A stretch of 64,000 nt of DNA from Pseudomonadota bacterium. GTDB lineage: Bacteria; Pseudomonadota; Alphaproteobacteria; SHVP01. The position numbers and the translations under genes are program-made. The DNA lies in contig JAQBYN010000004.1 in assembly GCA_027622715.1 (NCBI GenBank), positions 1 to 64,000 on the forward strand, read 5' to 3'. The notes below the pieces were generated by a model that saw only the letters and a list, made by a program, of their open reading frames with translations, ran no database searches and was not told the origin of the DNA. This document shows positions 460 through 42,298 of the stretch, one piece after another; the stretch's first letter is position 1; every line of letters starts with the position of its first letter.

Positions 460-593
460 GCTCCAGGAATGCCATAAGAGCTTCCCTTTGCGGATCGGGA
501 ATGCAGCACCGAGACACCTGAATGTGCTCCGCGCGTCTTGGTGGCGATCTCCGGGAAAACCCCGATGCCCGACAGCAATACGGTGCGGCTAAA

Positions 594-1970: not shown

Positions 1971-2118
1971 AATTCCTCGTAATAAAGTGTGGGCCTGAGC
2001 CAACAAGTCGTCATGGTGCCACAAAAATTGGCCGGGTGCCGACCACCGCGGCCAGCCCTTCAGGGGCGATCCCCTGCTATGCTAGTTTTTGCGCGAAGTT
2101 TCCAGCAGAGGCGTCTTC

Positions 2119-2928: not shown

Positions 2929-2946
2929 CGGTCGGTTGGAGCGAAC

Positions 2947-3948: not shown

Positions 3949-3983
3949 GTTTCAGGGCTTCATACCGCACTAGTTGAGACATC

Positions 3984-3995
3984 CGAGACGTCTCG
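3984..3995. promoter_or_regulatory. 12-bp perfect palindrome upstream of the amidohydrolase
   Basis: CGAGACGTCTCG reads the same on both strands and lies 34 bases before the amidohydrolase start. A half copy, GAGAC, precedes it at 3976-3980. It could be an operator for an unlinked regulator; no regulator gene is adjacent, so the role is a guess. Confidence 0.3.
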
Positions 3996-4029
3996 TGAGT
4001 GCCCAAGCATCAATGAGCCCGGAGGGACC

Positions 4030-5511
4030 ATGGCGATTATTCAGCGTTACGCGGCGGCACCCACTAAATCGGAAAAAATTCGCGGCGGACTGGGGCACCC
4101 TGTTATTGATGCCGATGGTCATCTTCTTGAAGTGGAACCGGTTCTTCTCGATTACATCAAGGCGGTGGGGGGGCCAAAACTTCAGCATCGCTATGAGACG
4201 TTCATGGCGAGCCGGCCCTACGACAAATGGCATGCCATGTCGTGGGATGAACGGCGCGCAAATCGCCCGATGCGTCCGGCGTTTTGGTTTACCCCCGCCG
4301 CTAACACGGTCGACCGGGCGACGGCGATGCTGCCGGGACTCCTGCGCTCCAGGCTCGATGAAATTGGCGTCGACGTTTCGGTGCTTTATCCGACCCAGGG
4401 GCTCGCGGTGTGGCGCATCGGCGATTCGGAGCTGCGGCTCGGGGTCATCCGCGCACTGAACGACATGAACGCAGATTTGTTTAGCAGTTACGGCGACCGT
4501 CTGATCCCCGCGGCGGTAATCCCGATGCAAACACCGCAAGAGGCGCTAGACGAACTGGCCCACGCGGTTGGCACACTCGGCATGAAGGCAATCATGATCG
4601 AAGGCACCATCCGCCGTCCATTCCCCACGACCCAACAGGGCGTTATCGAAAGGCCCGGCGATAACAAAGCATTCTGGATCGATTCGCTGGGGATCGACGG
4701 CGCCCATGACTATGACCCGGTATGGCGCCGCTGTGTCGACCTAAAGGTATCGCCGACGATCCACACCGGCACGATGGGGTGGGGCGCACGTTGCTCGATC
4801 TCGAACTACAACTATAACCACATCGGCCACTTCGCCGCCGGCAACGAGGCGGTGTGCAAGGCGTTATTCATGGGCGGCGTGACACGGCGGTTCCCCTCGC
4901 TGCGCTTCGGTTTTCTCGAAGGCGGAGTCGGCTGGGCATGCAGTCTCTATAACGACCTGATCGAGCACTGGGAGAAGCGCCACATCGGGGTGATCGAACA
5001 GAACCTCGATCCTGCGATGATCGACCGGGCGCTGCTGGTCGACCTGTTTGAGCGCTATGGGGATACTCGGCACCGCGAGAAGATCGATCAGATTCGTCTC
5101 GGTGACGGGACCTATTTCGATCAGCATCCGGAACGGCCGGAAGATATCGATGATTGGGCTGCTTGTGAGATCAAACAAAAACAGGACCTACGCGACCTCT
5201 TTGTCCCCAACTTCTACTTCGGTTGCGAAGCTGACGACCGGATGGCGGTCTGGGCCTTCAATGACAGGGTCAATCCGATGAATGCCCGCTTGAAAGCGAT
5301 GTTCAGTTCGGACATCGGTCACTGGGACGTCCCCGATGCGACGAACGTCCTCGCTGAATCCCACAGGCTCGTCGAGATGGGATTGATGAGCACCGACGAT
5401 TACCGCGATTTCGTTTTCGGCAATGCCGTGACGCTTTACGCTGGGCTAAACAGTGATTTCTTCAAGGGCACGACCGTCGAGGCCGAAGCTGCCCGCGAAT
5501 TGACGGCTTAA
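4030..5511 (+). CDS. Amidohydrolase-family (amidohydrolase 2) metal-dependent hydrolase/decarboxylase
   Basis: 493 residues of a TIM-barrel amidohydrolase of the ACMSD-like PF04909 type. The N-terminal metal motif appears as VIDADGHLLEVEP, where the usual D-x-H pattern reads D-A-D-G-H. A central IHTGTMGW supplies a His, and the C-terminal SSDIGHWDVPD supplies the last Asp. Many relatives are annotated as decarboxylases or hydrolases of aromatic-ring products. It is longer than typical members (about 330-400 residues), with an insertion around residues 200-320. SD GGAGGG lies five bases before the ATG. The stop overlaps the stop of the Rieske gene on the other strand (TTAA), and a role in the same catabolic route is likely but inferred. 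Confidence 0.87.
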   Translation: MAIIQRYAAAPTKSEKIRGGLGHPVIDADGHLLEVEPVLLDYIKAVGGPKLQHRYETFMASRPYDKWHAMSWDERRANRPMRPAFWFTPAANTVDRATAMLPGLLRSRLDEIGVDVSVLYPTQGLAVWRIGDSELRLGVIRALNDMNADLFSSYGDRLIPAAVIPMQTPQEALDELAHAVGTLGMKAIMIEGTIRRPFPTTQQGVIERPGDNKAFWIDSLGIDGAHDYDPVWRRCVDLKVSPTIHTGTMGWGARCSISNYNYNHIGHFAAGNEAVCKALFMGGVTRRFPSLRFGFLEGGVGWACSLYNDLIEHWEKRHIGVIEQNLDPAMIDRALLVDLFERYGDTRHREKIDQIRLGDGTYFDQHPERPEDIDDWAACEIKQKQDLRDLFVPNFYFGCEADDRMAVWAFNDRVNPMNARLKAMFSSDIGHWDVPDATNVLAESHRLVEMGLMSTDDYRDFVFGNAVTLYAGLNSDFFKGTTVEAEAARELTA

Positions 5512-6686
5512 CGGTTTGACGGGGCCTGCGGTGGCCGACCGACACAGGCGCTCCACGCCGCGTAAAACGTGCGCAATCCAATGTCGTCTTGGGCGGTGCG
5601 GTTCTCGTCGCGGGCAATGATCTGATACTGCGCGGCGCCACCGCCGAACGATTTCTCGCACGCCTCGGCGGCAAAGGCGTCCTCTGGAATGTTGCGCCCA
5701 AAAGGACCCCAGAACTGGTTGTGGTGCTGCATCCGGGTGCGCCGGGTTTCGCTACTGTCGCCTTTCAGTCCAAGACCGCGGAATTCGATCAACGTATGGC
5801 GTTGATCGATAGGGATAATCGTGTCGATGCGGATGACCGTGCCGCGCGATAGCACCATCGCGTTGGGAAACAGATGGGTTGTTCGCATGTCGTTCGCCGG
5901 TGCGCCAGGCAGGGCAAGGCTGTCGGTGCGGGCGTTCCAGCCCTTGTAATTGTCATAGTTCATTTTCTGACCGCCGCCGCCGATATGTCCGTTCTCAAAA
6001 ATGTCGACAGTACGGCCTTTGTCGATCTGTGTGCGGCGCAGCGCGACGTGCATCAACGTATGGTACGCGTCGACGTTCGTCTCCATCCACGCCTTCCAAT
6101 TGGCATCGATCCGGGTGCGGTTAAAATGAAATACTTCGAGCTCACCGCCGCCAAGGAGGTCTTCGAAGCGATCGAGCGACCCCGCAAGAAAGTCTTCGAG
6201 CGACGGTGCCTTGTCATCCATGTTGATGAAAATCAGACCGAATTTTGTTTCGGTGCGGACGGCGCGAAGGCCGCAATCGTCCATGCGCAGTCCTGTCGCC
6301 GCGTACCCTTCGGGTCGCGGAATATCAATGCAGGCGCCGAGCGCGTCGTAGCTCCACAGATGATAGAAGCAGGTTAGTCGCGCAGCGTTGCCGCTAATCT
6401 CGTGGATGATCTTGGCGCCCCGGTGAGAGCAGGTGTTGACGAAAGTTCGGACGATGCGGTCGGGTCCGCGAATCACAATCAGCGGCATCCCGACATGATC
6501 GAGGGTGCGAAAGTCACCCTGCGCCGCGAGCTCGCTTTCGTGGCAGGCGAAGCGCCATAGACGGCCAAATATCTTCGTCCGTTCGTCATCAAAAATGCCT
6601 GGGTCGGTGTAGACATTGCCGCTCACATAGTGGGTTGGCGGCAGTTGCGGCGGCGTTTGCCACTGATCGGCGTTTCGGGATGTCAT
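5508..6686 (-). CDS. Rieske [2Fe-2S] ring-hydroxylating oxygenase, alpha subunit
   Basis: 392 residues. The Rieske ligands are visible as CSHRG and CFYHLW, about 18 residues apart in the first third. The mononuclear iron site is NVDAYHTLMH followed by an Asp in NIPEDAF. The two His are separated by three residues, while I would expect four in naphthalene- or vanillate-type oxygenases. The enzyme would insert oxygen or demethylate an aromatic or quaternary-amine substrate using electrons from a separate reductase, not encoded here. It is the last gene of the binding protein-ATPase-permease operon, starting two bases after the permease stop. This implies that the transporter imports its substrate. 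Confidence 0.92.
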   Translation of the reverse strand: MTSRNADQWQTPPQLPPTHYVSGNVYTDPGIFDDERTKIFGRLWRFACHESELAAQGDFRTLDHVGMPLIVIRGPDRIVRTFVNTCSHRGAKIIHEISGNAARLTCFYHLWSYDALGACIDIPRPEGYAATGLRMDDCGLRAVRTETKFGLIFINMDDKAPSLEDFLAGSLDRFEDLLGGGELEVFHFNRTRIDANWKAWMETNVDAYHTLMHVALRRTQIDKGRTVDIFENGHIGGGGQKMNYDNYKGWNARTDSLALPGAPANDMRTTHLFPNAMVLSRGTVIRIDTIIPIDQRHTLIEFRGLGLKGDSSETRRTRMQHHNQFWGPFGRNIPEDAFAAEACEKSFGGGAAQYQIIARDENRTAQDDIGLRTFYAAWSACVGRPPQAPSNR

Positions 6687-6688
6687 GA

Positions 6689-7483
6689 TCAGGCCGCCGG
6701 CGGTCGCTTTTCGACCATCACCGACTCGTGCCAGGGCACGATCACGCGCCGTGCGCCGATGACCGCGAGATACATCACGAATCCCAGAAACGTTAAAAGT
6801 GCGATGACCGCGAACAAGCTATCGACTTCGTACGCATTCAGGGTCGCCACGGCCAAATGGCCAAGACCAACGTTGCCACCGAGATACTCGCCGACGACCG
6901 CGCCGATTGTGGCCAAAACGATGCCGACTTCCATACCGGTCAAGATCGCCGGCAGAGAGCTCGGAAATTCGAGTGTCCAAAACGTTTGTGTGCGCGAGGC
7001 ATTCAAACTGGTCATGACATCGCGGTGGCCGAGGTCGACCGATTTGATGCCGAATAGCGTGTTGGTGAAAATCGGGAAAAACGCCAGCACCGCGGCAATC
7101 ACGATTTTCGATTCCGGTCCAAAGCCGAACCACAATATGAATAGCGGAATGAGCGCGATCTTCGGTACGACCTGCGCCGCGACGATGTAGGTGTTGAGTG
7201 TTCGTTCGAGCCAGGGAACTTTGCCAAGGACCGCGCCCGTCAGGATCCCCGTGACCGACGCTATCGCGAACCCGGCAAGGGCCTCATAGACGGTGATCGA
7301 GGCGTGCCGAAACGTGCCCGGGTCGGTCAACAGCTCCCACAGGCCGCCGAATACGGCCACCGGCGACGGCAGAATGAATTTTGAGACGTCGAAGATGACG
7401 ATGTAGTAGTGCCAAATGAGAAAAAAGACGGCGAGGATCAACGGGTTGGCGATCCATACAGCGTTGCGCCGGACGAATTTCAT
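6689..7483 (-). CDS. ABC transporter permease, SsuC/TauC type
   Basis: 264 residues with about six membrane helices and the cytoplasmic coupling (EAA) segment ALNASRTQTFWTLEFP, typical of the nitrate/sulfonate/taurine/thiamine-precursor importer class. It forms the inner-membrane channel for the ATPase encoded just upstream, with which it overlaps by 4 bp (ATGA-type coupling). The Rieske gene follows after two bases. The class does not fix the substrate; aromatic acids and sulfonates are both known. Confidence 0.93.
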   Translation of the reverse strand: MKFVRRNAVWIANPLILAVFFLIWHYYIVIFDVSKFILPSPVAVFGGLWELLTDPGTFRHASITVYEALAGFAIASVTGILTGAVLGKVPWLERTLNTYIVAAQVVPKIALIPLFILWFGFGPESKIVIAAVLAFFPIFTNTLFGIKSVDLGHRDVMTSLNASRTQTFWTLEFPSSLPAILTGMEVGIVLATIGAVVGEYLGGNVGLGHLAVATLNAYEVDSLFAVIALLTFLGFVMYLAVIGARRVIVPWHESVMVEKRPPAA

Positions 7484-8304
7484 CCCATCTCCTCCAGCTC
7501 TTCGCGGAGGTCGCGGACGATTGACTGAAACTCCAGTGTGGTCTGAAGCCGCATATCCCGCGGCCGCTCGAACGACACATCGGTAATGCTGTGCACGCGG
7601 CCCGGGCGCGGCGATAACAGGATGATCCGGTCCGCGAGAAAGACCGCTTCCGAGATCGAGTGCGTGACGAACAGAACGGTTCGTTCGCTTTGCATCCAGA
7701 TGCGCTGAATTTCTATGTTCATCTGGTCGCGCGTCATTGCGTCAAGGGCGCCGAAGGGCTCGTCCATTAGCAAAATCTCAGGATCGTAGGACAGGGCGCG
7801 CGCAATCGCCGCGCGCTGGCGCATCCCGCCTGATAGTTCGCGCGGCCAACGGCGTTCAAAGCCCGAGATGCCAACGAGTTTGCAAAGTTCGTGGGCCCGT
7901 TGAAGCCGGTCCTGTTTGCTGGCGCCGCGCAATTTGAGCGGTAACGCGATGTTTTGTTCGATGTTGTACCAGGGCATCAGGTTTGCTTCTTGGAACACCA
8001 CGCCAAGTTCCTGCACGGCCTTATTGTCGCGCTGATCGTTCTGCCACAGGTCGCGTCCGCCGATGAGGACCCGGCCGTTACTCGGCCGCAGTAGTCCGGC
8101 GGCGATCCGCAGCAGCGTAGTCTTGCCGCAGCCCGACGGGCCAAGCAAGACGATGAATTCACCGCGGGCAAACGACAGGTTGATGTCCTGTAGCGCGTGG
8201 ACCGTACCTTCGGCTGTCTCGAATCGCTTCTCGATACCGGAAAATTCGATCTCTGTCGGTCGCGTGGCGGCGGCGCCCTCGGCGACATCAATCTGACTGT
8301 TCAT
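7480..8304 (-). CDS. ABC transporter ATP-binding protein, SsuB/TauB type
   Basis: 274 residues with every nucleotide-binding motif: Walker A GPSGCGKTT, signature LSGGMRQR, Walker B ILLMDEPFGALD and the switch His in VTHSISEA. It powers import through the overlapping permease gene. The length and the C-terminal SPRPGRV element match the nitrate/taurine subfamily. The N terminus (MNSQIDVAEGAAATRPTEI) is slightly extended before the ABC core. Regulation is probably shared with the binding-protein gene, with differential expression through the hairpin at 8322-8356. Confidence 0.95.
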   Translation of the reverse strand: MNSQIDVAEGAAATRPTEIEFSGIEKRFETAEGTVHALQDINLSFARGEFIVLLGPSGCGKTTLLRIAAGLLRPSNGRVLIGGRDLWQNDQRDNKAVQELGVVFQEANLMPWYNIEQNIALPLKLRGASKQDRLQRAHELCKLVGISGFERRWPRELSGGMRQRAAIARALSYDPEILLMDEPFGALDAMTRDQMNIEIQRIWMQSERTVLFVTHSISEAVFLADRIILLSPRPGRVHSITDVSFERPRDMRLQTTLEFQSIVRDLREELEEMG

Positions 8305-8321
8305 ATACCACCGATAGCAGT

Positions 8322-8356
8322 TGAACCCGGGGTGGAGTCGTGCTGCCCCGGGTTCA
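8322..8356 (-). terminator. Intercistronic hairpin between binding-protein and ATPase genes
   Basis: An exact 11-bp inverted repeat, TGAACCCGGGG and CCCCGGGTTCA, is separated by 13 bases. No T-tract follows it. Placed between a binding-protein gene and its ATPase/permease genes, it could attenuate read-through or protect the upstream mRNA 3' end, so that more binding protein than membrane complex is made. Confidence 0.55.
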
Positions 8357-8367
8357 CCGTTCTGCTC

Positions 8368-9390
8368 TTAGGCGCTGGCTTGATCGACCAGCTTGTTTGT
8401 ATAAAGCGTCGACGCTTTGACCGGTTTGGCGAGTTTCAGCGAAACCATCGCGTTGGTAATGGAGTCCCACCGGCTTGCAACGTTGCGCAGGATATTGGCA
8501 TCACCCTCTTCGAACCATGTGTCGAGCTCGGCCTTCGCCGAGATGGCAAGAAGGTCCAAATTCTTGATGCCAATCAGATCGTACTTGTCCCCGATTCGTG
8601 TCAATACCGGTTTCAGGTCTGCATTCCGAACTTCATCAAGCGAGGCCCGAACCCCGCGCAGGAAAGAAACCAACATCTCGGGATTTTTCTCCAGGGTCTC
8701 GGTGCTGCAGAAGTAGATTTGTCCCGGCATCGGGACCTCGCGGTCGGTGTTCCAGGCATGGATTGGTTGGCCGGTTTCCCGTAAGTTTACGACTGAGCCG
8801 GTGCTTGGCATGTAACAAGCGATGCGACCCGCCTCAATAAGACTGAACGCGCCTGCCGCGTTGCCGACGACCTGGCGCTCGACAGATTTGTGCGGGATGC
8901 CATTCTTCTCGAGCATCATGTCCAACAGGTTTTCGGTGCCGCCACCCGAAGATGTGATCCCGATGACTTTGCCCACCATGTCCTTGGGGCTATCAATCGG
9001 GTTGTCCTTGTGGCTTGTCACAAAGAACGGCGAAGACTGCTTGACCGTAGAGAACGAAATCAGCGGCGCGCCCTGATTGCCCACCGCGTTGACAATATCG
9101 ATTGAGCTGGCGCGGCCGATTGCGGCACGTCCGGACAGGACCTGCTGGACGGCCTGTGCAGCGCCGTTGCCCGGCAGGATTTCCGCATCGAGACCTGCTT
9201 TGGCAAAGTGGCCGCCGGTATCTGCGTTTAGAACCGGCATGAAGCCCGCCAAATATTTGAACGGTGTGATGAACACCATTTTTTTCATCTGGGCATTGGC
9301 TCTGCCGATGAAGAATGGACCGAGTGCGGCCGCGCCACCGACCGCCGCGACGCCTTTGACGACCGTGCGACGGGATATTTTTGAAGCCAT
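8368..9390 (-). CDS. ABC transporter substrate-binding protein (NMT1/SsuA-like), Tat-exported
   Basis: 340 residues. The N terminus carries a twin-arginine signal (SRRTVVKG followed by a hydrophobic Ala/Gly stretch) with a likely cut after RANA. The mature part begins QMKKMVFITPF and has the two-lobe periplasmic binding fold of the NMT1/SsuA group (GNGAAQAVQQVLSGRAAIG; SSGGGTENLLDMM). I use the ATG at 9390 because GGAGG lies upstream; a longer frame to 9408 would add six residues. Tat export suggests folding before export. It is the first gene of the importer-Rieske operon and is divergent from the methyltransferase at 9576. Confidence 0.92.
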   Translation of the reverse strand: MASKISRRTVVKGVAAVGGAAALGPFFIGRANAQMKKMVFITPFKYLAGFMPVLNADTGGHFAKAGLDAEILPGNGAAQAVQQVLSGRAAIGRASSIDIVNAVGNQGAPLISFSTVKQSSPFFVTSHKDNPIDSPKDMVGKVIGITSSGGGTENLLDMMLEKNGIPHKSVERQVVGNAAGAFSLIEAGRIACYMPSTGSVVNLRETGQPIHAWNTDREVPMPGQIYFCSTETLEKNPEMLVSFLRGVRASLDEVRNADLKPVLTRIGDKYDLIGIKNLDLLAISAKAELDTWFEEGDANILRNVASRWDSITNAMVSLKLAKPVKASTLYTNKLVDQASA

Positions 9391-9575
9391 TGTTCGTTTC
9401 CTCCCCATGTAGGTTCAGCAGGAAGGGTATCGGCTTGCTGGGGCTCCGGCAAACGGCGCCCAGGAACGTAGGCTTACACTCGCCGTCCCGCCGCGCCGCC
9501 GGTCACCGGGACGCCCAATGGTGTCATGCGCGTATTTGTCTTAGGCTTGGCAATCTCATGACTTCGGAGCAAGCA

Positions 9576-23693: not shown

Positions 23694-24346
23694 ATGGCAG
23701 ACGCATTGGGGCACCGGGCAAAGTGGGGCTTGATCATTCCCTCAAAGAATACCGTGTGCGAGACCGAGATGCACCGCCTCGTTCCGCCCGGCATCACCAT
23801 CAATACCGCGCGATCCGCGCGGTCATGACCTGCGAGCCGGACTACCTGTTGATGGGTGAGGGCGGCTTTTCGTTCCCCCGCGCCGAGCTCGAGGCGTTCG
23901 ACCGAAAGTACGAAGAAATCTCCGGCCTGCGGGTCGCGTCATCGACCCGTGCGTTCCTCCGCGCGCTGGAAACCATGAAGGCGCGCAAGGTTGCCGTCCT
24001 CACCCCGCGGCTCCCCGACAGCGGGATCGTTTCCGGCGGCCTGTGGGAAGCGTGCGGCTACGAGGTCGCGGCGGCCAAGGGTCTCGGCTGCGCGTCGATC
24101 CACGATATTGCCAATCTGACCGAAGACACCTTGCGCACCGGCTTGCGCGAACTCGCGCGCAGCGATGCCGATGTCATCCTCGCCACCGGCAGCGAGATCG
24201 CGCTGGCCCACATGATCGCCGAAGCCGAGGAGTGGATCGGCAAACCGGTCCTCCACCTCAACGCGGTGTTGGTCTGGTACGCGCTGCGCGATTCCGGTTT
24301 CGACGATCGTCTGGCCGGCTACGGGACGTTGCTCAACGCGTATTAA
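23694..24346 (+). pseudogene. Asp/Glu-racemase / maleate-isomerase-like gene with internal deletion and frame change
   Basis: The ATG at 23694 has AGGGAGGA before it and begins a good family N terminus (WGLIIPSKNTVCETEMHRLVPPG), but this frame stops at 23828. The rest of the family sequence continues in another frame from about 23815 (MTCEPDYLLMGEGG to GYGTLLNAY, stop at 24346). About 25-30 residues seen between these blocks in relatives are missing, so I read a small deletion plus a frame change rather than two genes. The C-terminal catalytic Cys of maleate isomerase is replaced by ATGSE. The stop overlaps that of the MmgE/PrpD gene by 4 bp. Confidence 0.7.
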
Positions 24347-25713
24347 ACCAACAGCCGCACGAAGTCCGCCACGTCGTCGAAATTCTCCAGCCCGTCGATC
24401 GCCTGCAGCACCGCCTCGGTCCGTTTGTCGTTGAGCACGGTGCCCGCCAGCTCGCGGAACTTCTTCTCGATCTCAGGCCGGCCCATCGGCGGTTGATCGC
24501 GCGGCCACTCGACATCGCGTTTGACGGTCTTGCCACCTTTCAGCGCGATCTCGATCCCGAATCGCATCTTCTGGTCGGTGAAAAAGTCGGCGTCGGCGGC
24601 GGTGTCGTGATGCATCTCGACCTTCGACAACAGCCCGCGCACCACCGGGTCGGCCAGCTTCTCGTCGCTGTACATCGCCGGCAGCAAGGGTTCCTGCATA
24701 ATCGTCGTGACCACCGTGTAGGGCAGTGAGAATTGTGCGTCCACGGCCCCTTGCGGGTTGGTGTCGCCGATCAAGTTCATGTTCATACCGGAAATCTTGA
24801 TCTTCTCGACCTGGTCGGGCGTGATCGCATGCTCCTTCACGAGCCCGCGCGTCGCGGCGTAGAGCGGATGGTTCCATGCGATCGACGGGTGAATCTTGTA
24901 TTCCGTCTTGGTGATCGCCCAGCTTTTCCCCAAGTCCTTGACAATCTGCGCGAAGTCGCAACGGTCCGACCCGGCCATCACGTGAAAGCCCTGTTCGCCG
25001 TCCAGCACGCCGTGCCCGCCGCGAAACCCGCGGTGGGCCGACTGTGCGGCCACCGTGCCCGCCATGCTCATCCAGCCCCAACCAAGTTTCACCTCGCGCA
25101 TGGGCCGCGTCTCGGCGACGACGCCGAAATACTTGTACGCCGAGGGCACCGTGGCGTAGGTCCCGGCAATGCCGAACGCCACGTCCAACGCGTCGGCATC
25201 GAGCCCATACAGCTTGCCGGCGGTCACGGCCGAGGCGAACGGATGGTACTGCTCGCCCCACACTAGTTTGCCGCGCTCCGGCGTCGGTTGCATCGCCGCG
25301 CCGATCCGGGCCACGACCTCGAAGCCGAGCGCGATGCTAAGGATCAAGTCTTTCCCCGACGACCCCAGCAATTCGCCGACCGCCAGTCCTGATGATGCCG
25401 TGATGTACCCCGGGTGGGCGATATAAAGAACCGTATCTTCGTAATCCAGCGCGAAGCCGAAATTGCCGTTCGCATAGGCCGCCAACGGCGCCGACACCTT
25501 GGTCCCGTCGCCGATGATCGTCGATTGCTCGCGCCCGCCGCCCATGTCCTTGGCCATCTCGGTGTGCAGCTTGCCGATGCGGGTCTGATAGCCCGCCAGC
25601 ATGCAGCCGATAATGTTGAGGACGGCCAACTTGGTCGCATCGATCGTCTCTTGCGGCAGGTCTTGGTAGGTCGTTTTGGCGACAAAGTTTGTCAGGTCGC
25701 GGGTCGTGCCCAT
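24343..25713 (-). CDS. MmgE/PrpD-family protein (copy 1)
   Basis: 456 residues. The pattern is that of MmgE/PrpD: an all-helical start with NIIGCMLAGYQTR, the central DYEDTVLYIAHPG, and a C-terminal alpha/beta lid with YSDEKLADPVVRGLL. 2-methylcitrate dehydratase and cis-aconitate decarboxylase belong here; both dehydrate or decarboxylate citrate-like acids. The typical Asp-Asp-Thr near the active site is present as DYEDT. AAGGAG precedes the ATG. A second, diverged copy lies at 37493. The neighbouring isomerase-like remnant suggests an old organic-acid cluster. Confidence 0.88.
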   Translation of the reverse strand: MGTTRDLTNFVAKTTYQDLPQETIDATKLAVLNIIGCMLAGYQTRIGKLHTEMAKDMGGGREQSTIIGDGTKVSAPLAAYANGNFGFALDYEDTVLYIAHPGYITASSGLAVGELLGSSGKDLILSIALGFEVVARIGAAMQPTPERGKLVWGEQYHPFASAVTAGKLYGLDADALDVAFGIAGTYATVPSAYKYFGVVAETRPMREVKLGWGWMSMAGTVAAQSAHRGFRGGHGVLDGEQGFHVMAGSDRCDFAQIVKDLGKSWAITKTEYKIHPSIAWNHPLYAATRGLVKEHAITPDQVEKIKISGMNMNLIGDTNPQGAVDAQFSLPYTVVTTIMQEPLLPAMYSDEKLADPVVRGLLSKVEMHHDTAADADFFTDQKMRFGIEIALKGGKTVKRDVEWPRDQPPMGRPEIEKKFRELAGTVLNDKRTEAVLQAIDGLENFDDVADFVRLLV

Positions 25714-34108: not shown

Positions 34109-34136
34109 TTGACCCCGCGCACGCTGCCTCTATAAT
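34109..34136 (+). promoter_or_regulatory. Sigma-70 promoter of the dioxygenase operon
   Basis: TTGACC at 34109-34114 and a perfect TATAAT at 34131-34136 are separated by 16 bases. The predicted start of transcription is near 34143, giving a 5' leader of about 27 bases before the GTG at 34170. The GntR-type operator overlaps its -10. Confidence 0.65.
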
Positions 34137-34147
34137 GTCCGTACATT
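34134..34147. promoter_or_regulatory. Palindromic operator A (likely GntR target)
   Basis: AATGT-CCGT-ACATT is a 5-bp inverted repeat with a 4-base centre, overlapping the -10 and start point of the dioxygenase operon. The same element recurs at 38959-38972 and 39742-39755. Occupation would block RNA polymerase, so repression by the local GntR regulator is predicted. Confidence 0.6.
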
Positions 34148-34169: not shown

Positions 34170-35018
34170 GTGGCGTTGTCGGTCCAACCCATCAAGGGAT
34201 CTTTCGTCGGCGAGGTCGAACTGCCCGATTTGCGACAGATTGACGACGCCACCGTGGTCGAGCTCAGGCAGGCCTGGAATCAGTACCAAATACTGATCCT
34301 TCGCGGCCTCAAAATGGACGAGGGCGCACAGGTCGCCTTCAGCCAACGCTTCGGCGACCTCGAGATTCACGTTCGCACCGAATATCTCTCGCGCGAACAT
34401 CCTGAGATTCTCTACGTCTCGAACATGAAGGACGAGACGGGCCGCACCATCGGCATTCTGTCTGACGGCGAAGTGGGCTGGCATTACGACCAGATTTATC
34501 TGCCGGGCCCCGCCGTCGGCTCGTTCCTTGTGGCGCACACGCTGCCCAAAGAGGGCGGCGCGACGTCGTTTGCCGACATGTCGCTGGCCTACGAAAAGCT
34601 GCCTCACGCGACAAAAGAGATCATTGAAGGGCGCAAGGCGGTCCAGTCTTACGAGGCCTTCAACAGCGCCTATTCCGTGCCAACCAGCGGCAAACAGCGC
34701 AAACAGACCCCCGACATCGAGCATCCGATCGTCCGCACCCACCCGGTGACTGGCCGCAAGGCGCTCTATATTTGTCCAGGCATGACGATCGCGATCGTTG
34801 GCTTGCCAGAGGACGAAAGCCGCGCGCTGCTCGACGAGCTGTTCGCCTGGACCGTTCGCCCCGAATTCGTCTACACCCACAAGTGGCGCGCGGGCGACGG
34901 CGTGATGTGGGACAATGCCTCCACAATGCACCGGCGCGAGCCGTTTGACGTGAACGAACAGCGTCTGATGAAGCGCACCACGATATTGCCGCCCGCCGAG
35001 TTGGCGGTGCCGTTCTAA
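34170..35018 (+). CDS. TauD/TfdA-family Fe(II)/2-oxoglutarate dioxygenase
   Basis: 282 residues. The facial triad is visible as H-x-D in WHYDQIY and a distal His in TMHRRE; the 2-oxoglutarate Arg is in MKRTTI. The enzyme hydroxylates a substrate carbon next to a heteroatom or carboxylate, releasing CO2 and succinate. The GTG at 34170 has AAGGAG upstream. The flavoprotein gene follows after 19 bp and the lyase gene overlaps that one, so the three form one operon under operator A. Substrate unknown; a hydroxy, sulfo or amino acid are all possible. Confidence 0.9.
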   Translation: MALSVQPIKGSFVGEVELPDLRQIDDATVVELRQAWNQYQILILRGLKMDEGAQVAFSQRFGDLEIHVRTEYLSREHPEILYVSNMKDETGRTIGILSDGEVGWHYDQIYLPGPAVGSFLVAHTLPKEGGATSFADMSLAYEKLPHATKEIIEGRKAVQSYEAFNSAYSVPTSGKQRKQTPDIEHPIVRTHPVTGRKALYICPGMTIAIVGLPEDESRALLDELFAWTVRPEFVYTHKWRAGDGVMWDNASTMHRREPFDVNEQRLMKRTTILPPAELAVPF

Positions 35019-35037
35019 AGCCGGAAAGGCGACGACC

Positions 35038-36585
35038 ATGTTGATGACAGCCGAGTCCTACCGCGATTCGCTGCGCCGCTATCGGCCCAAGGTTTTCGTC
35101 AACGGCGACCGCGTCGACTCGGTGGCCGACGAGGCACGCTTTATGCCGGGCATCAATGCGATTGGCGTGACGTATGATTTCGCCCAGGCCGAGCGCAGTC
35201 GCTTCCTCATGGCGCCGACCGACACCCGCACCGGCAAGACGGTTAACCGCTTCCTCCACATGAATCGCAGCACCACCGACTTGCTGCACAAACTCGAAGC
35301 CGTGCGGTTGGTCTGCCAAGAGTCCGGCTGTGCCCAGCGCTATCTGACGCAAGACGCGCTCAACGCGATCTATCAGGCGACTTGGCGGATGGATCAGGAC
35401 GGTGGCGAGGGCGTCCACGATCGCTTTCTCGCCTATCTCGACCGCGTGCAAGACGAGGATCTAACGCTCGGCGTTGCCATGACCGACGCCAAGGGTGACC
35501 GCTCCAAACGGCCGCATCAACAGGCCAACCCCAATACCTATCTTCACATCAAGCAGCGGCGCCCCGACGGGATCGTTATCGAAGGCACTAAGGCGATCGT
35601 TACCGCCGCGCCCTACGTTCACGAATTTCTCGTCATGCCGTGCCGCAACATGACCGAAGCCGACAAAGACTTCGCGGTGTGCTGCGCGGTGCCGGTCGAT
35701 GCCGAAGGCATCACGATCATTGCGCGGCCAGCCGGCCGGCCCGGCGAGGCGGCGGCGAAGTTCAGCAACAAATACGGCCAGTCCACCGGCGTCGTCGTCT
35801 TTGAGGACGTGTTCGTGCCCTGGGACCGTGTCTTTATGGCGGGCGAGTGGCAGCACAGTCAGTTCCTCACGACCTCTTACGCCGCCCACCACCGGCATTC
35901 CTGTATCGGCGCGCGTGCCGGTTTCGGCGACCTCTTGATCGGCGCCGGCATGCTGATGACCGAGGCCAACGGTCTCGATGTCGCGAACGTGCCGCATCTG
36001 CGTGCGCGGATGGTCGATCTCATCAAAATCGTCGAAGGGTTCTTCGCTTGCGGCGTCGCGTCATCGACCTACGGTCAGGTCGATCCGTCCGGACTGGTCG
36101 AGCCCGAACGGATCTACGCCAACATCGGCAAACTCCTGATGTCGACGCAAATATATGAAATGCACCGCGTCGCGCACGAAGTGTCGGGCGGCCTGATCGT
36201 CGCGTTGCCGGGTCCGGAAGAAGACCACAATCCTGAAACCGCTGGCCTGTTATCTGACGTGTTGCGTGGCCGCGACGATATTCCCTACGACAAACGGATG
36301 GATGTCGCGCGCATGATTGAAGACCTCACCGCATCGGGACAGGCAGGTTGGTATTCACTGATCTCGCTGCACGGCGGCGGTTCGCCCGAAGCAATGGGCT
36401 TGGAAATTTTCCGCAGCTACCCGCTGCAAGACAAAGTGGATTTGGTCGCACGTCTCCTCGACCGTGGCGCGCTCGCTGACGATGCGGGCACGCCGAGCCG
36501 CGACAAACAACCCGGCCGCTGTTGCGTTACGGGGTGCGAAACACCCGAAGAAGCTGCGCAACCGCCGGCGCGGGTGCGTTCATGA
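35038..36585 (+). CDS. HpaB/4-hydroxybutyryl-CoA-dehydratase-like flavoprotein
   Basis: 515 residues. The start MLMTAESYRDSLRRY resembles 4-hydroxybutyryl-CoA dehydratase (AbfD), and the fold is that of the HpaB/AbfD group with an acyl-CoA-dehydrogenase-type flavin site. AbfD from Clostridium holds a [4Fe-4S] cluster by Cys99, Cys103, His292 and Cys299. Here the matching positions are Cys98, Tyr102, His285 and Ala292, so two cluster ligands are gone. That favours a flavin-dependent monooxygenase or another FAD reaction over the radical dehydratase. A flavin reductase (HpaC) is not encoded nearby. Its stop overlaps the lyase start by 4 bp. The C-terminal tail (GTPSRDKQPGRCC) is unusual. Confidence 0.88.
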   Translation: MLMTAESYRDSLRRYRPKVFVNGDRVDSVADEARFMPGINAIGVTYDFAQAERSRFLMAPTDTRTGKTVNRFLHMNRSTTDLLHKLEAVRLVCQESGCAQRYLTQDALNAIYQATWRMDQDGGEGVHDRFLAYLDRVQDEDLTLGVAMTDAKGDRSKRPHQQANPNTYLHIKQRRPDGIVIEGTKAIVTAAPYVHEFLVMPCRNMTEADKDFAVCCAVPVDAEGITIIARPAGRPGEAAAKFSNKYGQSTGVVVFEDVFVPWDRVFMAGEWQHSQFLTTSYAAHHRHSCIGARAGFGDLLIGAGMLMTEANGLDVANVPHLRARMVDLIKIVEGFFACGVASSTYGQVDPSGLVEPERIYANIGKLLMSTQIYEMHRVAHEVSGGLIVALPGPEEDHNPETAGLLSDVLRGRDDIPYDKRMDVARMIEDLTASGQAGWYSLISLHGGGSPEAMGLEIFRSYPLQDKVDLVARLLDRGALADDAGTPSRDKQPGRCCVTGCETPEEAAQPPARVRS

Positions 36586-37460
36586 TCAAGGGGCCGCTGC
36601 GTACGCTCCTGTTCGCGCCCGGCAACCATCCGCGCAAGGTCGAGAAAGTCTTTCATACCGGCACCGACGTCGTGATCCTCGATCTCGAGGACGCGGTCGC
36701 GATCAGCGAAAAGATCGCGACCCGGGCAACGGTGGTGGAGGCGCTCAAGCAACCGCGCCCCAATCTTGGCTACGTCCGGGTCAATGCCTTTGACACCGAG
36801 TATTGCTTTGGCGACATCCACGCGGTGATGGGCGACTGGCTCGACGGCATCATGCTGCCCAAGGTCGAATCCGCGGCTCAACTCGAAGCTGTTGACTGGA
36901 TGATGAGCGCCATTGAGCGCGAACGCGGCCTCGAAGAGGGCAAGATCGACTTGCTGCCCATCGTCGAAACCGGCCTCGGTCTTGATCGCATCGACGACAT
37001 CGCGCGCTCGGGTACCCGGGTCAAACGCCTGTCGTTCGGCGCCGGCGATTTCACCCGTGACATGGGCTACCTGTGGACCCCCGACGAAAGCGAACTCAAT
37101 TATCCGCGCTCGCGCTTCGCTGTCGCGTCGCGTGCCGCCCGGTTGGAGCCGCCGATCGACACCGTGTTTATCGACCTGCGCGATATCGAACATTTTGAAA
37201 AAGCCGCACGTACCGCAATGGGCCTCGGCTTCCAAGGCAAGCTGTGCATCCACCCCAGTCAGATCGACATTTGCAACACCGTCTTCACGCCGACCGACGC
37301 GCAAATCGTCGAAGCGAAAAAGCACATCGAGGCGTTCAAGAAGGCCGAGGCCGAAGGCTCGGCCTCAATCCAGGTCGACGGCTATTTCATCGACTACCCG
37401 ATCATCGAGAAAGCCGAGCGCATCCTGGCGTTGGCCGCGGCGATTTCGGCGCGGGGCTAG
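36582..37460 (+). CDS. HpcH/HpaI-CitE-family C-C lyase
   Basis: 292 residues, starting at an ATG overlapping the previous stop (ATGA). The pattern LFAPGNHPRKVEK and VILDLEDAVAISEK (metal Glu/Asp in the barrel) is that of the CitE/beta-malyl-CoA lyase group, and the C-terminal half has LCIHPSQIDICN. The enzyme would split a beta-hydroxyacyl ester, or a CoA thioester, to give acetyl-CoA or pyruvate. The context (dioxygenase, flavoprotein, PrpD-like partner) suggests the last cleavage step of the pathway. The substrate is inferred only. Confidence 0.9.
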   Translation: MIKGPLRTLLFAPGNHPRKVEKVFHTGTDVVILDLEDAVAISEKIATRATVVEALKQPRPNLGYVRVNAFDTEYCFGDIHAVMGDWLDGIMLPKVESAAQLEAVDWMMSAIERERGLEEGKIDLLPIVETGLGLDRIDDIARSGTRVKRLSFGAGDFTRDMGYLWTPDESELNYPRSRFAVASRAARLEPPIDTVFIDLRDIEHFEKAARTAMGLGFQGKLCIHPSQIDICNTVFTPTDAQIVEAKKHIEAFKKAEAEGSASIQVDGYFIDYPIIEKAERILALAAAISARG

Positions 37461-37464
37461 CCGA

Positions 37465-37485
37465 GCGGGCAGGGTGCAAGCCCGC
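37465..37485. terminator. Hairpin between convergent lyase and MmgE/PrpD genes
   Basis: GCGGGC and GCCCGC form a 6-bp stem around nine bases, between the two convergent stops. No T-tract is present, so the call is weak. Confidence 0.35.
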
Positions 37486-37492
37486 GGACATT

Positions 37493-38920
37493 CTATCTCG
37501 TGAGTGCGGCCGCCAACCCCGTTAGGTCCGACGCCGTATCCAGCCTTATCACGGCCTCGATGACTTGTTCGGTGCGCGCCGCATCGAACACCCGGCTCGC
37601 GTTGCTGCGGAACTTGCCGAGAATATCGCTGGTGCTGAGCGGGTTCTTGTCCGACCCGCGGTTGTGCGTCTCGCGGTGGCGCAATTCGCGCCCGTCCTTG
37701 GTACGCACCAAGACTTCGCCGCCGTAATAGCGCGGGAACAACGATGTCGGGTCGGTCTCGTAACGCGCCTTGCTGCATAGATCGAGAATCGTCGGATCGT
37801 TGAGCGCATCGTCCTCCAGTTCGTCCAGCGTGAAGCGCCCGCGCACGATCGACGCCGCCATGGTGTAGTGCACCGAAAACTTCGCGTCGTAAGAATTTGC
37901 AGGCTTTTTCTTGTTGGCTTCGGGCTCGCACACGACCGGCACTTGCTTCTCGTGGATCAACGCCACCAGTTCCGCGATATCGTCGGGCTTAAGGTCGTAT
38001 TTGGCCCGCAGCGCCAGTGCTGCGTCGGCAAAAGCATGGTTGAAGTGACAGGCCGGATAGGGCTTGAAGGCGACGTTCATCAACTCCCAATCGGTGTTGA
38101 GCCCCGCCACGGCTTTCTCCGGTTCGGTGGTCACGTCGTGCGCCGCGAACACGTTGTACAGACCAAAGCGCCCTTCGTAGGCACGGCGCGGCCCGACGAA
38201 GCCCCCTTGGGCCAATGCGGCGGCGGTAATGGCACCGACGCCGGCCCAGGCAGGGTGCATGCGCTTGGTCCAGGCGCCGTCTTCGAGAAATTCCAACGCG
38301 CCGGAGGTCGTGCTCAGCGTGATGCCTTGCGCCATGACCAATTGTTCTTCGGTCAATCCCATCAGGCGGCCCGCCGCAAGGGTCGCGCCAAACGCGCCCA
38401 CCACCCCGGTTGCGTGATATCCCTGTTTGTGGAATCCGCCGTTGGCCCCCATTCCGATCCGCGCATCGGCTTCGACCCCGGCCAAATAGGCCGCCATCAT
38501 CGTCGCACCGCTGGCCCCGTGTTTAAGGCCGACGGCAAACGCCACCGGCAACGCCGACGCAGAACAATGAACCACGCTGTCGGCGTGGGTGTCGTCATAG
38601 TCGAGGCCGTGGATCAGCGTGCCGTTCACTAACACGGCGTCGCGCAGCGGCAGACGAGTGCCGCTCGCAATCACCGGCGAGTCGCCGTCGCCCGCCAACG
38701 CGTGTACGCCGGCCAGCGTCACCCCACCGAAATCGAACGTTGAGGCCGCTAGTCCAACGCCGAAGCAATCCAAAATGTTTAGCTTGGCGCGCTCAACGAC
38801 GGCGCTTGGGACCGCGCCCAGGTCAAGATCCAAGGCAAATCGCGCCAACCTGCTCGACAAGAATGAGGGCGCGTCGTGGGCGGCGGTGGGTTCCTCGAAT
38901 GTCTCAGCGGCGGAAGTCAT
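37493..38920 (-). CDS. MmgE/PrpD-family protein (copy 2), GntR-island member
   Basis: 475 residues with the same organisation as copy 1 at 24343 but clearly diverged: NILDCFGVGLAASTFD, the active-site DYDDTHADSV and a lid with RYETDPTSLFPRYYGGE. Members dehydrate or decarboxylate methylcitrate- or aconitate-like acids. It is convergent with the lyase gene and has its own promoter, 40 bases downstream of operator B. The shared operator ties it to the same pathway. AGGAG lies about seven bases before the ATG. Confidence 0.88.
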   Translation of the reverse strand: MTSAAETFEEPTAAHDAPSFLSSRLARFALDLDLGAVPSAVVERAKLNILDCFGVGLAASTFDFGGVTLAGVHALAGDGDSPVIASGTRLPLRDAVLVNGTLIHGLDYDDTHADSVVHCSASALPVAFAVGLKHGASGATMMAAYLAGVEADARIGMGANGGFHKQGYHATGVVGAFGATLAAGRLMGLTEEQLVMAQGITLSTTSGALEFLEDGAWTKRMHPAWAGVGAITAAALAQGGFVGPRRAYEGRFGLYNVFAAHDVTTEPEKAVAGLNTDWELMNVAFKPYPACHFNHAFADAALALRAKYDLKPDDIAELVALIHEKQVPVVCEPEANKKKPANSYDAKFSVHYTMAASIVRGRFTLDELEDDALNDPTILDLCSKARYETDPTSLFPRYYGGEVLVRTKDGRELRHRETHNRGSDKNPLSTSDILGKFRSNASRVFDAARTEQVIEAVIRLDTASDLTGLAAALTR

Positions 38921-38958: not shown

Positions 38959-38972
38959 ATTGTACGGACATT
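38959..38972. promoter_or_regulatory. Palindromic operator B (likely GntR target)
   Basis: On the minus strand this reads AATGT-CCGT-ACAAT, matching operator A at 13 of 14 positions. A TACAAT -10-like box overlaps its right half. It lies about 40 bases before the MmgE/PrpD start, so repression is expected. Confidence 0.55.
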
Positions 38973-38991: not shown

Positions 38992-39723
38992 CTACCACTC
39001 GCGCCGCAATTCTGCCGAATAGGTAAAGCGGTCCTGCGGATGGATGCTGACCGACACTTCGAACACGCGCTTCTTGTGGCCGGCGTAGCGGCGCACCACG
39101 ACCAGGGCCGGCGTTCCGGGCGCAACTTTGAGTGCGTCGGCCACCGCTTCCGGCACGCGGTCCGCAAACAAATCCAGTTTGACCTCGTTGACATTTTCCC
39201 CGAACAGCTTTTCGACCAAGCGATAAACCGGAATTGGCTCCTTACCGATTTCGTCGGCTAGGCGCGCGTATTCCGGAATGACATAAACGTCGGTCCAGCA
39301 GATCGGTCTCTTTCCTTTGTCGAGGGAGCGCAGGCCGCTGATCCGAATCCAGTCTTCGCCCTTCTTGCACCCTAGCGTCGCGGCAAGAACCGAGTCGGCC
39401 TTCACCGCTTCGCTCGACGACACCTGAAGGGTGGTCTCCGGAGGATAGCGCAGCAGTTCATCCAAGGTGCCGATGGACTGCGTATAGGTGCCCCGCGCCT
39501 CGGTCGCTTTGACGATGGTGCCGAGACCGGCCTGGCGGGTCAGCAGGCCCATGTCCCCCAATTGCCGCATCGCTTCACGAATAGTGTGGCGGCTCACGCC
39601 GAAGCGCTCGCGCAATTCCATTTCGGTCGGCATCATGGCACCCACCGGCACCTTGCCCGACCGGATTTCGGTCAAGAGTTCGTCGGCGATCTCTTGGTAC
39701 AAAGGGCGGCTACGCTGGCTCAT
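38992..39723 (-). CDS. GntR-family regulator with UTRA (HutC-type) ligand domain
   Basis: 243 residues. A winged helix at about 8-70 (TEMELRERFGVSRHTIREAMRQL, here cut to its core ERFGVSRHTIREAM) precedes a UTRA effector domain with LDELLRYPPE and VYVIPEYARLADEIG. Such proteins repress catabolic operons and release DNA when a pathway intermediate binds. A TATGAT -10 ends nine bases before the ATG at 39723 and no ribosome site is seen, so the mRNA may be leaderless. A TTG at 39729 is also possible. Operator C overlaps this promoter. Confidence 0.9.
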   Translation of the reverse strand: MSQRSRPLYQEIADELLTEIRSGKVPVGAMMPTEMELRERFGVSRHTIREAMRQLGDMGLLTRQAGLGTIVKATEARGTYTQSIGTLDELLRYPPETTLQVSSSEAVKADSVLAATLGCKKGEDWIRISGLRSLDKGKRPICWTDVYVIPEYARLADEIGKEPIPVYRLVEKLFGENVNEVKLDLFADRVPEAVADALKVAPGTPALVVVRRYAGHKKRVFEVSVSIHPQDRFTYSAELRREW

Positions 39724-39732
39724 AGGCAATTC

Positions 39733-39741: not shown

Positions 39742-39755
39742 ATTGTCCGGACTTA
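39742..39755. promoter_or_regulatory. Palindromic operator C (likely autoregulatory GntR target)
   Basis: ATTGT-CCGG-ACTTA keeps the TGTCCG/ACxT core of sites A and B but is less symmetric. It sits between the -35 and -10 of the GntR gene and just upstream of the divergent TPR gene, so it would suit weaker autorepression. Confidence 0.45.
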
Positions 39756-39812: not shown

Positions 39813-41111
39813 ATGCGGCACGATGCGCAGGGTTTAGCGGTTTCGACGGATCGCCCCGAAACCATCGCCGCTGTTGACCAGCTCTTGGCGCGTCAGGCAA
39901 ACCAACGCCTGGATCAAAGCGAACGCGCCGCGCTTCTGGCCGCGGCGGACCAGGACCCGGTGGCGCTGCCCAACACGATCGCGGCCATCCTCAGCATCCA
40001 CGCCGGCGACAAAGTGAGCGCTGCCCGTTATCTCGGCAGGGCGCGTGCCGCCCCAGACGCAAACGACCGTGAAGCATTATTCCTCGATGCTGCGGCCGCG
40101 TGGGCGGACGGCGACATTGACACTGCGATTGCCGGCTTCGAGCAGATTGCCGACCGCTGGCCGCGCGACATGTATGCCGTGTGGCTGTGCTGCACGCTCA
40201 AGTTCTACGCGCGCAAAGATGCCGACGGCGCGCTTGCCCTCGTGCGCCGCGTCATCGATCAAATCGACGATCGCGGCCAAGCCTACGCGCTCCTGTCGTT
40301 CATGGAAGAAGAAGCTGGGCTTTTCGCCGAAGCTGAATCATCGGCGCGTGTTGCAGTGGACCTCGATCCGACACTCATTCTTGGTCAGCACACAGTGGCC
40401 CATGTGATGGAAGCGCAGGGCCGTGACGCGGAAGGTGTCGAATGGCTCGAACGGTTCACCGAAACTTGGGATGACCTCAACGAATCGTTCAATCCGCATA
40501 TGTGGATGCATCTCGGGTTGCATTACCTCGGCATTGGCGACGGCGCGCAGGCGCTGAAGCTCTTCGACGTCGAGATTGCCCCACGCTATCTCGACAAAGG
40601 ACCGGCGCAACTCTACGGCGCCAACTTGCTGGCCCGCGCCGAACTCGCTGGGTTCGATGTCGGGGACCGGTTCGCCGGTATCGCGTCTCATATCGACATC
40701 GCGGCGCACCAGCACCTCGACGCGCTCGGCGACCTCCATCATGTCTACGTGCTGTCCCGCACCCCGGTCGGCGCACCGGCCTTCGTGAGCAGTATGGCGC
40801 AGCACGCCGAGGGCCTTCATCCCAGCGTCAAACCGACATGGGACGATGTCGTCCTACCCACCGCTCGGGCCATCGTGCTGTTCAATTCAGGCGATGCTCC
40901 GGGCGCAGCTGCAGCACTGGATTCGGCACACCACCGCTTCATCGACCTGGGCGGTAGCGCGGTTGAGCGCGGCGTTTTCGCCGACCTTTGGCTCCATGCG
41001 CTGATCGCTTCGGGCCGGCACGCAGAAGCCGCCGCCGAGCTCGATATTTTGCGGGCGCGCAAGGGCGATCATCTCGCCGTACGCCGCTTTGCCGGTTTGA
41101 TCGCCGCCTAG
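39813..41111 (+). CDS. TPR-repeat protein
   Basis: 432 residues of helical repeats with TPR-like pairs: AVDQLLARQANQRLDQSE, ALFLDAAAAWADGDIDTAIAGF, AALDSAHHRFIDLGGSA. Its Trp-Glu-Asp rich middle (NPHMWMHLGLHYLGIGDGAQALKLFD) matches a group of alphaproteobacterial TPR proteins of unknown role. No signal peptide, so cytoplasmic. ATG at 39813 with GGAGGA upstream. It is divergent from the GntR gene and convergent (stops overlap by 4 bp) with the flavoprotein at 41108. It may be a bystander to the island. Confidence 0.82.
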   Translation: MRHDAQGLAVSTDRPETIAAVDQLLARQANQRLDQSERAALLAAADQDPVALPNTIAAILSIHAGDKVSAARYLGRARAAPDANDREALFLDAAAAWADGDIDTAIAGFEQIADRWPRDMYAVWLCCTLKFYARKDADGALALVRRVIDQIDDRGQAYALLSFMEEEAGLFAEAESSARVAVDLDPTLILGQHTVAHVMEAQGRDAEGVEWLERFTETWDDLNESFNPHMWMHLGLHYLGIGDGAQALKLFDVEIAPRYLDKGPAQLYGANLLARAELAGFDVGDRFAGIASHIDIAAHQHLDALGDLHHVYVLSRTPVGAPAFVSSMAQHAEGLHPSVKPTWDDVVLPTARAIVLFNSGDAPGAAAALDSAHHRFIDLGGSAVERGVFADLWLHALIASGRHAEAAAELDILRARKGDHLAVRRFAGLIAA

Positions 41112-42298
41112 GTCTTCCAGAAATGTTGGGTTTCGTTCTCGATACCCAACATCAACCGGCCGGCGGGCGCCATGTTGCGATCCCACCCGACGCCGAATTG
41201 CTGCGACATCGCCGAGAGATCGCGAAACATGCGCTGCACTGGATTCGAATCGTAAAGACCCGAGGCGCCCATTTGCTGCACCAGCCGGTGCACCAGCGTG
41301 ACGCACAAACGGGTGACGTAGGCGCGGTCGCGCGCGAAGGCGATCTGCTGGTCCTGCGGCACCGGCTCACGCGCGGCTGCCCGGTCTCGCAAATACGACA
41401 TTTGCGCCTCGACCATCAGTTCGGCGGCGCGAAATTCGGCGGCGCTCTCGGCAAGCCGCAATTGCACCGACAACGAGGCTGCTGGCCGGTCGCCGAACAA
41501 CGCGCCGACGCGCGTCTTTGTCGATTCGGTGTAGGCCTGAAGCGCTCCCTCGGCGGCCCCCAGCAGCGGGCCCATCAACGTTGTCGCGACATAGGGGACA
41601 TACTCAATCCGGTAGAGCGCCGCGTCGCTATGCTGCGCGCCGGGCGGTTCGGGCGCGACGAGGTCGCGCGTCTTGATGAAGAGATGCGGCGGCACGTAAG
41701 CGTCTTTGAACACCATGTCCTTTGTGCCGGTGCCGCGCAGACCGGCGACATGCCACGTATCGGCAATCTCAAAGTCGCGCCGTGGCAACAGGCACGTCAC
41801 GGCGTCGCCGTCGTCCTCGACGGTACCGATGACAAAGCCCCACGGCGCATGATCAACCCCGCTGGCAAACGCGAATTGGCCGTCAAGCCGTAGCCCGTCG
41901 CCATCGCGCCGAATCTTGCCGCCGCGCGCCACCGTCGCGCCGGCCAAGACGGCACCTTTGCCGTCGCGCCAAACCTCTTCCTGCGCCTCGAGCGGAAAAC
42001 GGCCGACATAGGCCGCATGCGGCCCCACAATACTGACCAGCCAGGCGGTTGAGGGGCAGGCGCTCGCCAAGATCCGGCCCAACACGACAGGCGCGTCCCA
42101 GCCCAGCTCGTAGCCGCCAAACCGCGCGGGCTGGCAGATGCGGGTAAGGCCAGCGGCATGGAGCGCTTCCACCGTTGCCGGCAGCACGGTCCGGTTGGCT
42201 TCGGTCGCCGCGGCCTGGCCGCGTAGCATGGGCAGCAAGGCGCGGGCCCCCTCAGCAACCGCCTCAAGCGTGGGAATCTGCGCGTTTCCGCCGTTCAT
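41108..42298 (-). CDS. Acyl-CoA-dehydrogenase-fold flavoprotein (HsaA/DszC-like)
   Basis: 396 residues of the acyl-CoA dehydrogenase fold. The FAD and substrate elements are recognisable (CQPARFGGYELGW, GWDAPVVLGRILASACPSTAW near 70, GLRGTGTKDMVFKDAYVP), but the catalytic Glu near the C terminus is not obvious. This composition is shared by flavin-dependent monooxygenases such as HsaA, DszC and HpaB relatives. The protein probably oxygenates an aromatic or sulfur compound, with FADH2 from a separate reductase. No reductase is nearby. Convergent with the TPR gene. Confidence 0.85.
   Translation of the reverse strand: MNGGNAQIPTLEAVAEGARALLPMLRGQAAATEANRTVLPATVEALHAAGLTRICQPARFGGYELGWDAPVVLGRILASACPSTAWLVSIVGPHAAYVGRFPLEAQEEVWRDGKGAVLAGATVARGGKIRRDGDGLRLDGQFAFASGVDHAPWGFVIGTVEDDGDAVTCLLPRRDFEIADTWHVAGLRGTGTKDMVFKDAYVPPHLFIKTRDLVAPEPPGAQHSDAALYRIEYVPYVATTLMGPLLGAAEGALQAYTESTKTRVGALFGDRPAASLSVQLRLAESAAEFRAAELMVEAQMSYLRDRAAAREPVPQDQQIAFARDRAYVTRLCVTLVHRLVQQMGASGLYDSNPVQRMFRDLSAMSQQFGVGWDRNMAPAGRLMLGIENETQHFWKT

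Follow-up and report, generated by a model that had tools for sequence, protein, structure and literature searches.

An operator-linked gene cassette with an AbfD-like flavoprotein as candidate part of a distributed catabolic pathway

Which compound is consumed by bacteria that carry, side by side, genes for a TauD-like dioxygenase, an AbfD/HpaB-like flavoprotein, a CitE-like lyase and a PrpD-like protein? The question is opened by positions 34,170 to 38,920 of a 64,000-nucleotide stretch (the window) of contig JAQBYN010000004.1, from a 3.15-Mb alphaproteobacterial genome (G000; assembly GCA_027622715.1), where a preliminary description made from the letters had seen these four enzymes. Indeed, family profile searches found all four genes to be intact open reading frames (ORFs) with strong matches: a TauD/TfdA-family Fe(II)/2-oxoglutarate dioxygenase with a GTG start (tauD; 34,170..35,018, plus strand; PF02668, E 1.4e-67), an AbfD/HpaB-like enzyme with a FAD fold, hereafter the flavoprotein (hpaB; 35,038..36,585, plus strand; HpaB_N, E 8e-85; HpaB, E 5e-53), a CitE-like C-C lyase of the malyl/citramalyl-CoA lyase superfamily (citE; 36,582..37,460, plus strand; HpcH_HpaI/CitE PF03328, E 2e-50) and an MmgE/PrpD-family protein of the cis-aconitate decarboxylase/iminodisuccinate (IDS) epimerase type (prpD; 37,493..38,920, minus strand; MmgE_PrpD, E 6e-56). 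Just beyond this interval sits the gene of a GntR-family (HutC/UTRA) repressor (gntR; 38,992..39,729, minus strand), in which both the GntR helix-turn-helix (PF00392, 1.6e-19) and the UTRA ligand domain (PF07702, 3.9e-18) are present. On balance, we favour a reading in which this cassette belongs to one distributed catabolic pathway that would lead from a cyclic nitrogen compound over CoA-activated acids to C-C cleavage, controlled by a GntR switch. Genes that carry the anonymous annotations "TauD", "HpaB", "citrate lyase" and "MmgE/PrpD" would thereby be joined into one pathway; its parts all come from known enzyme families, and one of them represents a distinctive new subfamily.

Predicted operator and conservation of the cassette

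The genes tauD, hpaB and citE lie behind a putative sigma-70-like promoter, TTGACC-16-TATAAT (34,109..34,136, plus strand), that agrees with the consensus at 11 of 12 positions (mean of shuffles, 0.0). Its -10 box is overlain by a 14-bp palindrome, AATGTCCGTACATT (O1; 34,134..34,147), the end of which is 22 bases away from the tauD start. A near-identical site, AATGTCCGTACAAT (O2; 38,959..38,972, minus strand), was found upstream of prpD, and a weaker, operator-like one with one mismatch, TAAGTCCGGACAAT (O3; 39,742..39,755, minus strand), upstream of gntR. With up to two mismatches allowed, the window held six operator matches (1.6 expected), five of which were at the tauD, prpD and gntR places. 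A repressor seated on the -10 box would be the simplest mechanism. The preliminary description had put the genes under one operator, and the shared palindrome bears this out, but prpD is on the opposite strand and convergent with citE, so that the four genes are spread over two or more transcription units rather than one operon. For citE, the ORF listing gives a start at 36,522, but the ATG at 36,582 is more likely from the sequence; it overlaps the stop of the flavoprotein gene by 4 bp (ATGA), which would fit translational coupling.

The palindrome recurs in the 3.7-Mb genome of a congener (G001), in G006 and in gammaproteobacterial loci. When whole genomes were searched for exact matches to WWTGTYCGKACAWW, the pattern was found, among the matches listed, only at the tauD and prpD promoters in G001 and only at the tauD promoter in G006; all operator matches in G390 and G673 and four of the five in G391 were inside the cluster. 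The reversed pattern, used as the control, gave 0 to 1 matches genome-wide. In gammaproteobacterial genomes, exact sites precede gntR, prpD and tauD, and within the same cluster another separates two divergent isochorismatase genes; in locus L034, where such an exact site separates this gene pair, one-mismatch sites precede hyuA and the HMGL gene. Judged from these sites, the cassette genes share one predicted operator that is almost confined to the cluster genome-wide and is kept in Gammaproteobacteria, and the cassette can be described as a putative regulon defined by a precise operator.

The same gene set was sought in other genomes, as had been proposed earlier. All five genes stand together in the congener (L042; 79 to 95% identity). 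They also do so in Gammaproteobacteria, at the loci L034, L037 and L076 (44 to 70% identity), where gntR, citE, prpD and the flavoprotein gene follow one another in this order and tauD is convergent. Partial sets were found in L043, L044, L045, L063, L064, L065, L072 and L079. The carriers are alpha- and gammaproteobacterial genomes, for the most part from uncultured bacteria, and the four enzyme genes plus the repressor appear to constitute a switch-and-pathway module conserved in distantly related Proteobacteria. In a tree of the flavoprotein, the members linked to CitE or TauD clustered (5 label changes; mean of shuffles, 10.6; 2 of 500 shuffles as low), with L031 and L044, both on short contigs, scored as linked via tauD; the linked members are not monophyletic. 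About half of the flavoprotein subfamily occurs in different gene neighbourhoods, such as those with formylglutamate amidohydrolase, nitrilase or carbonic anhydrase, which suggests that the enzyme serves more than one setting.

Enzyme families, linked genes and the proposed pathway

In the TauD-like protein, the H105-D107-H254 metal triad and the 2-oxoglutarate R265 are invariant in nine orthologs, and the score against the equivalog model of taurine dioxygenase (TauD proper) was 165.6 bits, below its cut-off of 313. In the CitE-like protein, R86, E149, D176 and D291 (counted from the start at 36,522) are invariant in all 13 loci and align with 4l9y and 5vxc. It shares the catalytic Arg, the two metal-binding acids and the catalytic Asp with the malyl-CoA and citramalyl-CoA lyases (Mcl, CLYBL, RipC/Ccl) but stays under all equivalog cut-offs (222 of 443 bits for citrate lyase beta CitE, 163 of 375 bits for RipC) and has another gene neighbourhood. 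The PrpD-like protein keeps the active-site Asp, His and Lys in every ortholog compared. At the position of the active-site H277 of cis-aconitate decarboxylase (human numbering), it has Cys, as in IDS epimerase (8 of 8 orthologs), and thus it does not have the complete cis-aconitate decarboxylase active site. Against the 2-methylcitrate dehydratase PrpD model it scored 31.5 of the required 458 bits.

No CoA ligase or CoA-transferase lies inside the interval, as stated before, and the possibility that the CoA step is supplied elsewhere was borne out by a second locus of G000, where a CoA-transferase gene shows that a CoA-activation step is encoded in the genome. At this locus hyuB is split over two contig ends (residues 1 to 365 on C74, L087; residues 308 to 621 on C47, L088), which suggests that the two contigs adjoin; its neighbours encode a methylisocitrate-lyase-like protein, two isochorismatases, a YciO-like protein, HMGL and the CoA-transferase. 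The intact second locus of the congener (L080) adds a PotD-type transporter, an amidase and an Asp/Glu/hydantoin racemase. HyuB orthologs (65 to 100% identity) were present in 11 of the 24 flavoprotein-bearing genomes searched, G000 included. Around the cassette genes of L034, L037 and L076, we found genes for a family III CoA-transferase, an HMG-CoA-lyase-like protein, an acyl-CoA dehydrogenase, two isochorismatase-type hydrolases, hydantoinase A/B, an alpha/beta hydrolase and an EamA transporter, a larger cluster that is partly under the same operator. In the alphaproteobacterial L072, the set is surrounded by HyuAB, CoA-transferases, HMGL and a TonB-dependent receptor.

From the computed gene set, catalytic residues, shared operator, and linkage and co-occurrence with HyuAB and CoA-transferase genes, we infer a substrate class, an order of steps and a GntR ligand. 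The cassette region would make up one half of a dedicated catabolic module, the half with the regulation and the lower pathway. Until a pathway intermediate frees it from the DNA, the GntR/UTRA protein would be bound to AATGTCCGTACATT-type sites that cover the promoters of its own gene, of prpD and of tauD-hpaB-citE. ATP-dependent HyuAB would open a cyclic nitrogen compound (a lactam, imide or ureide), and isochorismatase-type amidohydrolases, encoded with HyuAB at the second locus of G000, would remove nitrogen. The 2-oxoglutarate dioxygenase could then hydroxylate the resulting acid or acids, and the family III CoA-transferase would load the acid onto CoA. The flavoprotein and the PrpD-like protein might rearrange the acid or acyl-CoA by dehydration, hydration, oxidation or decarboxylation, before the CitE-like enzyme splits a malyl-CoA- or citramalyl-CoA-like ester into an acyl-CoA plus either glyoxylate or a 2-oxo acid. 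The earlier idea that the four enzymes form a route to central metabolites is in line with a conserved cassette with kept catalytic residues, but they would cover this route only in part. To start from a hydroxylated or branched organic acid proved too narrow a view, since the linked HyuAB and amidohydrolase genes suggest a cyclic substrate that contains nitrogen.

Several observations weigh against this pathway. L045 and L065 have only the flavoprotein, PrpD and CitE. Two exact operator matches in G000, on contigs C22 and C71, lie beyond the cassette. No copy of the operator was found at the second (HyuAB) locus of G000 or G001, so that co-regulation there is at most conceivable and the tie of this locus to the cassette rests on the homologous clusters. 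HyuB at the above level of identity is absent in the genomes G088, G202 and G167, in which the flavoprotein is CitE linked, and the association of HyuB with CitE over the 24 genomes has a Fisher p of 0.013 that is uncorrected for kinship. Moreover, proteins of the HyuA/HyuB type are widespread and have diverse functions (as carboxylases, oxoprolinases or lactamases), which makes their pointer to nitrogen an indirect one.

If HyuAB and the amidases are mere frequent neighbours, the cassette alone could be a full pathway for a branched or hydroxylated di- or tricarboxylic acid (itaconate, citramalate or aconitate like), with TauD-type hydroxylation, PrpD-type dehydration or decarboxylation, a resident CoA-transferase, the AbfD-like step and CitE cleavage. 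This is the most serious alternative, although we consider it less likely. The absence of HyuAB near L045 and L065 would agree with it, as would a PrpD-like protein nearest to cis-aconitate decarboxylase and IDS epimerase, a CitE-like protein that matches the RipC, CitE and malyl-CoA lyase models and CoA-transferases that resemble the mesaconate and glutarate types. However, the gammaproteobacterial HyuAB and isochorismatase genes carry the same or a one-mismatch operator, and HyuAB and isochorismatases are linked with the set in Alphaproteobacteria too (L072) and are present in the window genome. With itaconate degradation (CoA-transferase, hydratase, Ccl), the distributed pathway has in common a CoA-transferase, a CitE-type lyase and a PrpD/aconitate-decarboxylase-type protein, but it adds TauD, the AbfD-like flavoprotein, HyuAB and amidohydrolases. 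With the HyuAB/CapAB and isochorismatase-type routes for creatinine/N-methylhydantoin and caprolactam, it has the linked HyuAB and isochorismatase proteins in common; here, however, these are under the caprolactamase cut-off and coupled to CoA-ester C-C cleavage.

The preliminary description knew no named pathway with exactly this set, and we found neither a characterised operon nor a described pathway with it in the literature searched, subscription papers and preprints being outside its scope. The homarine and trigonelline routes were considered, and no matching gene set was found. Heme- or bilin-derived maleimide degradation would fit amidohydrolases and a TonB receptor, but we do not claim it.

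The AbfD-like flavoprotein

The best matches of the flavoprotein in the Protein Data Bank (PDB) were the 4-hydroxybutyryl-CoA dehydratases 6vjr and 1u8v, the AbfD dehydratase/vinylacetyl-CoA isomerase family (33 to 34% identity over the whole length). Its AlphaFold model (pLDDT 90.2) has the full-length AbfD fold and aligned with 6vjr_B over 473 residues (Z 52.4, 2.2 A) and with 1u8v_A over 474 residues (Z 51.5, 1.9 A). The subfamily, 28 orthologous rows of which two are identical (62 to 95% identity to the window protein), was split from the dehydratases with full support in the tree. It apparently is a hitherto unrecognised subfamily with 4-hydroxybutyryl-CoA dehydratase as nearest relative.

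The [4Fe-4S] ligands of the 1u8v dehydratase are C99, C103, C299 and H292. Equivalents of C99 and H292 are kept (C98 and H285 in the window protein), but C103 is replaced by Tyr and C299 by Ala in 28 of 28 members, none of which has the complete four-ligand set, whereas the bona fide dehydratase relatives L009 to L011 and L039 retain CFQRC and the later Cys. The subfamily has new invariant cysteines instead: C93, C289 (at the site of the dehydratase Tyr296) and those of a C-terminal QPG[RQK]CCxxGC tail, which is of low confidence in the model (pLDDT below 50 at 497 to 499 and 501 to 506). The replacement of two of four Fe-S ligands raises the question of what the fold does after a change of its cluster site. 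Either the cluster was lost and the enzyme would be FAD only, or a cluster would be held by a new ligand set. Going further, one may speculate, with much doubt, that an FeS or other metal centre beside FAD, with rewired ligands (C98 and H285 kept; C93, C289 and the mobile tail recruited), catalyses radical chemistry of a new kind on a CoA ester during the aerobic degradation of an unrecognised nitrogen-containing compound. In a plasmid search, the sole subfamily member was a truncated, not annotated actinobacterial copy on the Mycolicibacterium gilvum plasmid pMSPYR101 (L105, 12,001 to 12,567), which covers residues 320 to 515 with 60% identity and keeps the tail as QPGKCCATGC.

Could the flavoprotein simply be a two-component aromatic (phenol) hydroxylase of the HpaB type, in a cluster that serves as an aromatic degradation operon? 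The flavoprotein does share the superfamily and fold of these flavin monooxygenases (Pfam HpaB domains; Z of about 42 to HpaB), and an HsaA-like flavin monooxygenase gene is close by (41,108..42,298, minus strand). We nevertheless regard this as improbable, since the identity is about 18 to 20%, the equivalog scores are far under the cut-offs (TIGR02309, 125.7 of 480.2 bits; TIGR02310, 85.3 of 885.2 bits), 4-hydroxybutyryl-CoA dehydratase is nearer by both sequence and fold (Z 52), no flavin reductase partner adjoins in the cassette and no ring-cleavage dioxygenase is in the conserved set. That the genes are unrelated neighbours by chance is most improbable: prpD is convergent to the other three, and order and completeness differ between loci, but the shared, conserved operator and the conservation of the set across classes contradict it.

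Further operator sites and neighbouring genes

In G000, two divergent TauD/TfdA-family genes on contig C22 have a close operator match, TATGTTCGGACATT, between them (L091, position 1364) and are possible further regulon members. On C71, TATGTCCGGACATT is found 49 bases ahead of a pyrroloquinoline quinone (PQQ)-dependent alcohol dehydrogenase gene (L092, position 8399). In G391 (contig C4), an operator precedes the gene of a TonB-dependent receptor, a candidate uptake system, that adjoins a CoA-transferase/HMGL pair (L093, position 8067). Searches with one mismatch gave several sites beyond the cluster, some at like transporter promoters in G000 and G001; those in L095/L104, L096/L103 and L094/L101 are near genes of Opp-type ABC transporters (binding protein or permeases), at partly orthologous places, and their membership in the regulon is suggestive only.

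The HsaA-like gene is kept beside the cassette in G001 (82%) and not in the other loci. The window has a second MmgE/PrpD-family gene (24,343..25,713, minus strand) with 25% identity to the cassette PrpD. Another catabolic-looking group occupies positions 1 to 9408 and comprises an isochorismatase-like C-terminal part, an alpha/beta hydrolase, a Rieske oxygenase alpha subunit and an NMT1-type ABC transporter.

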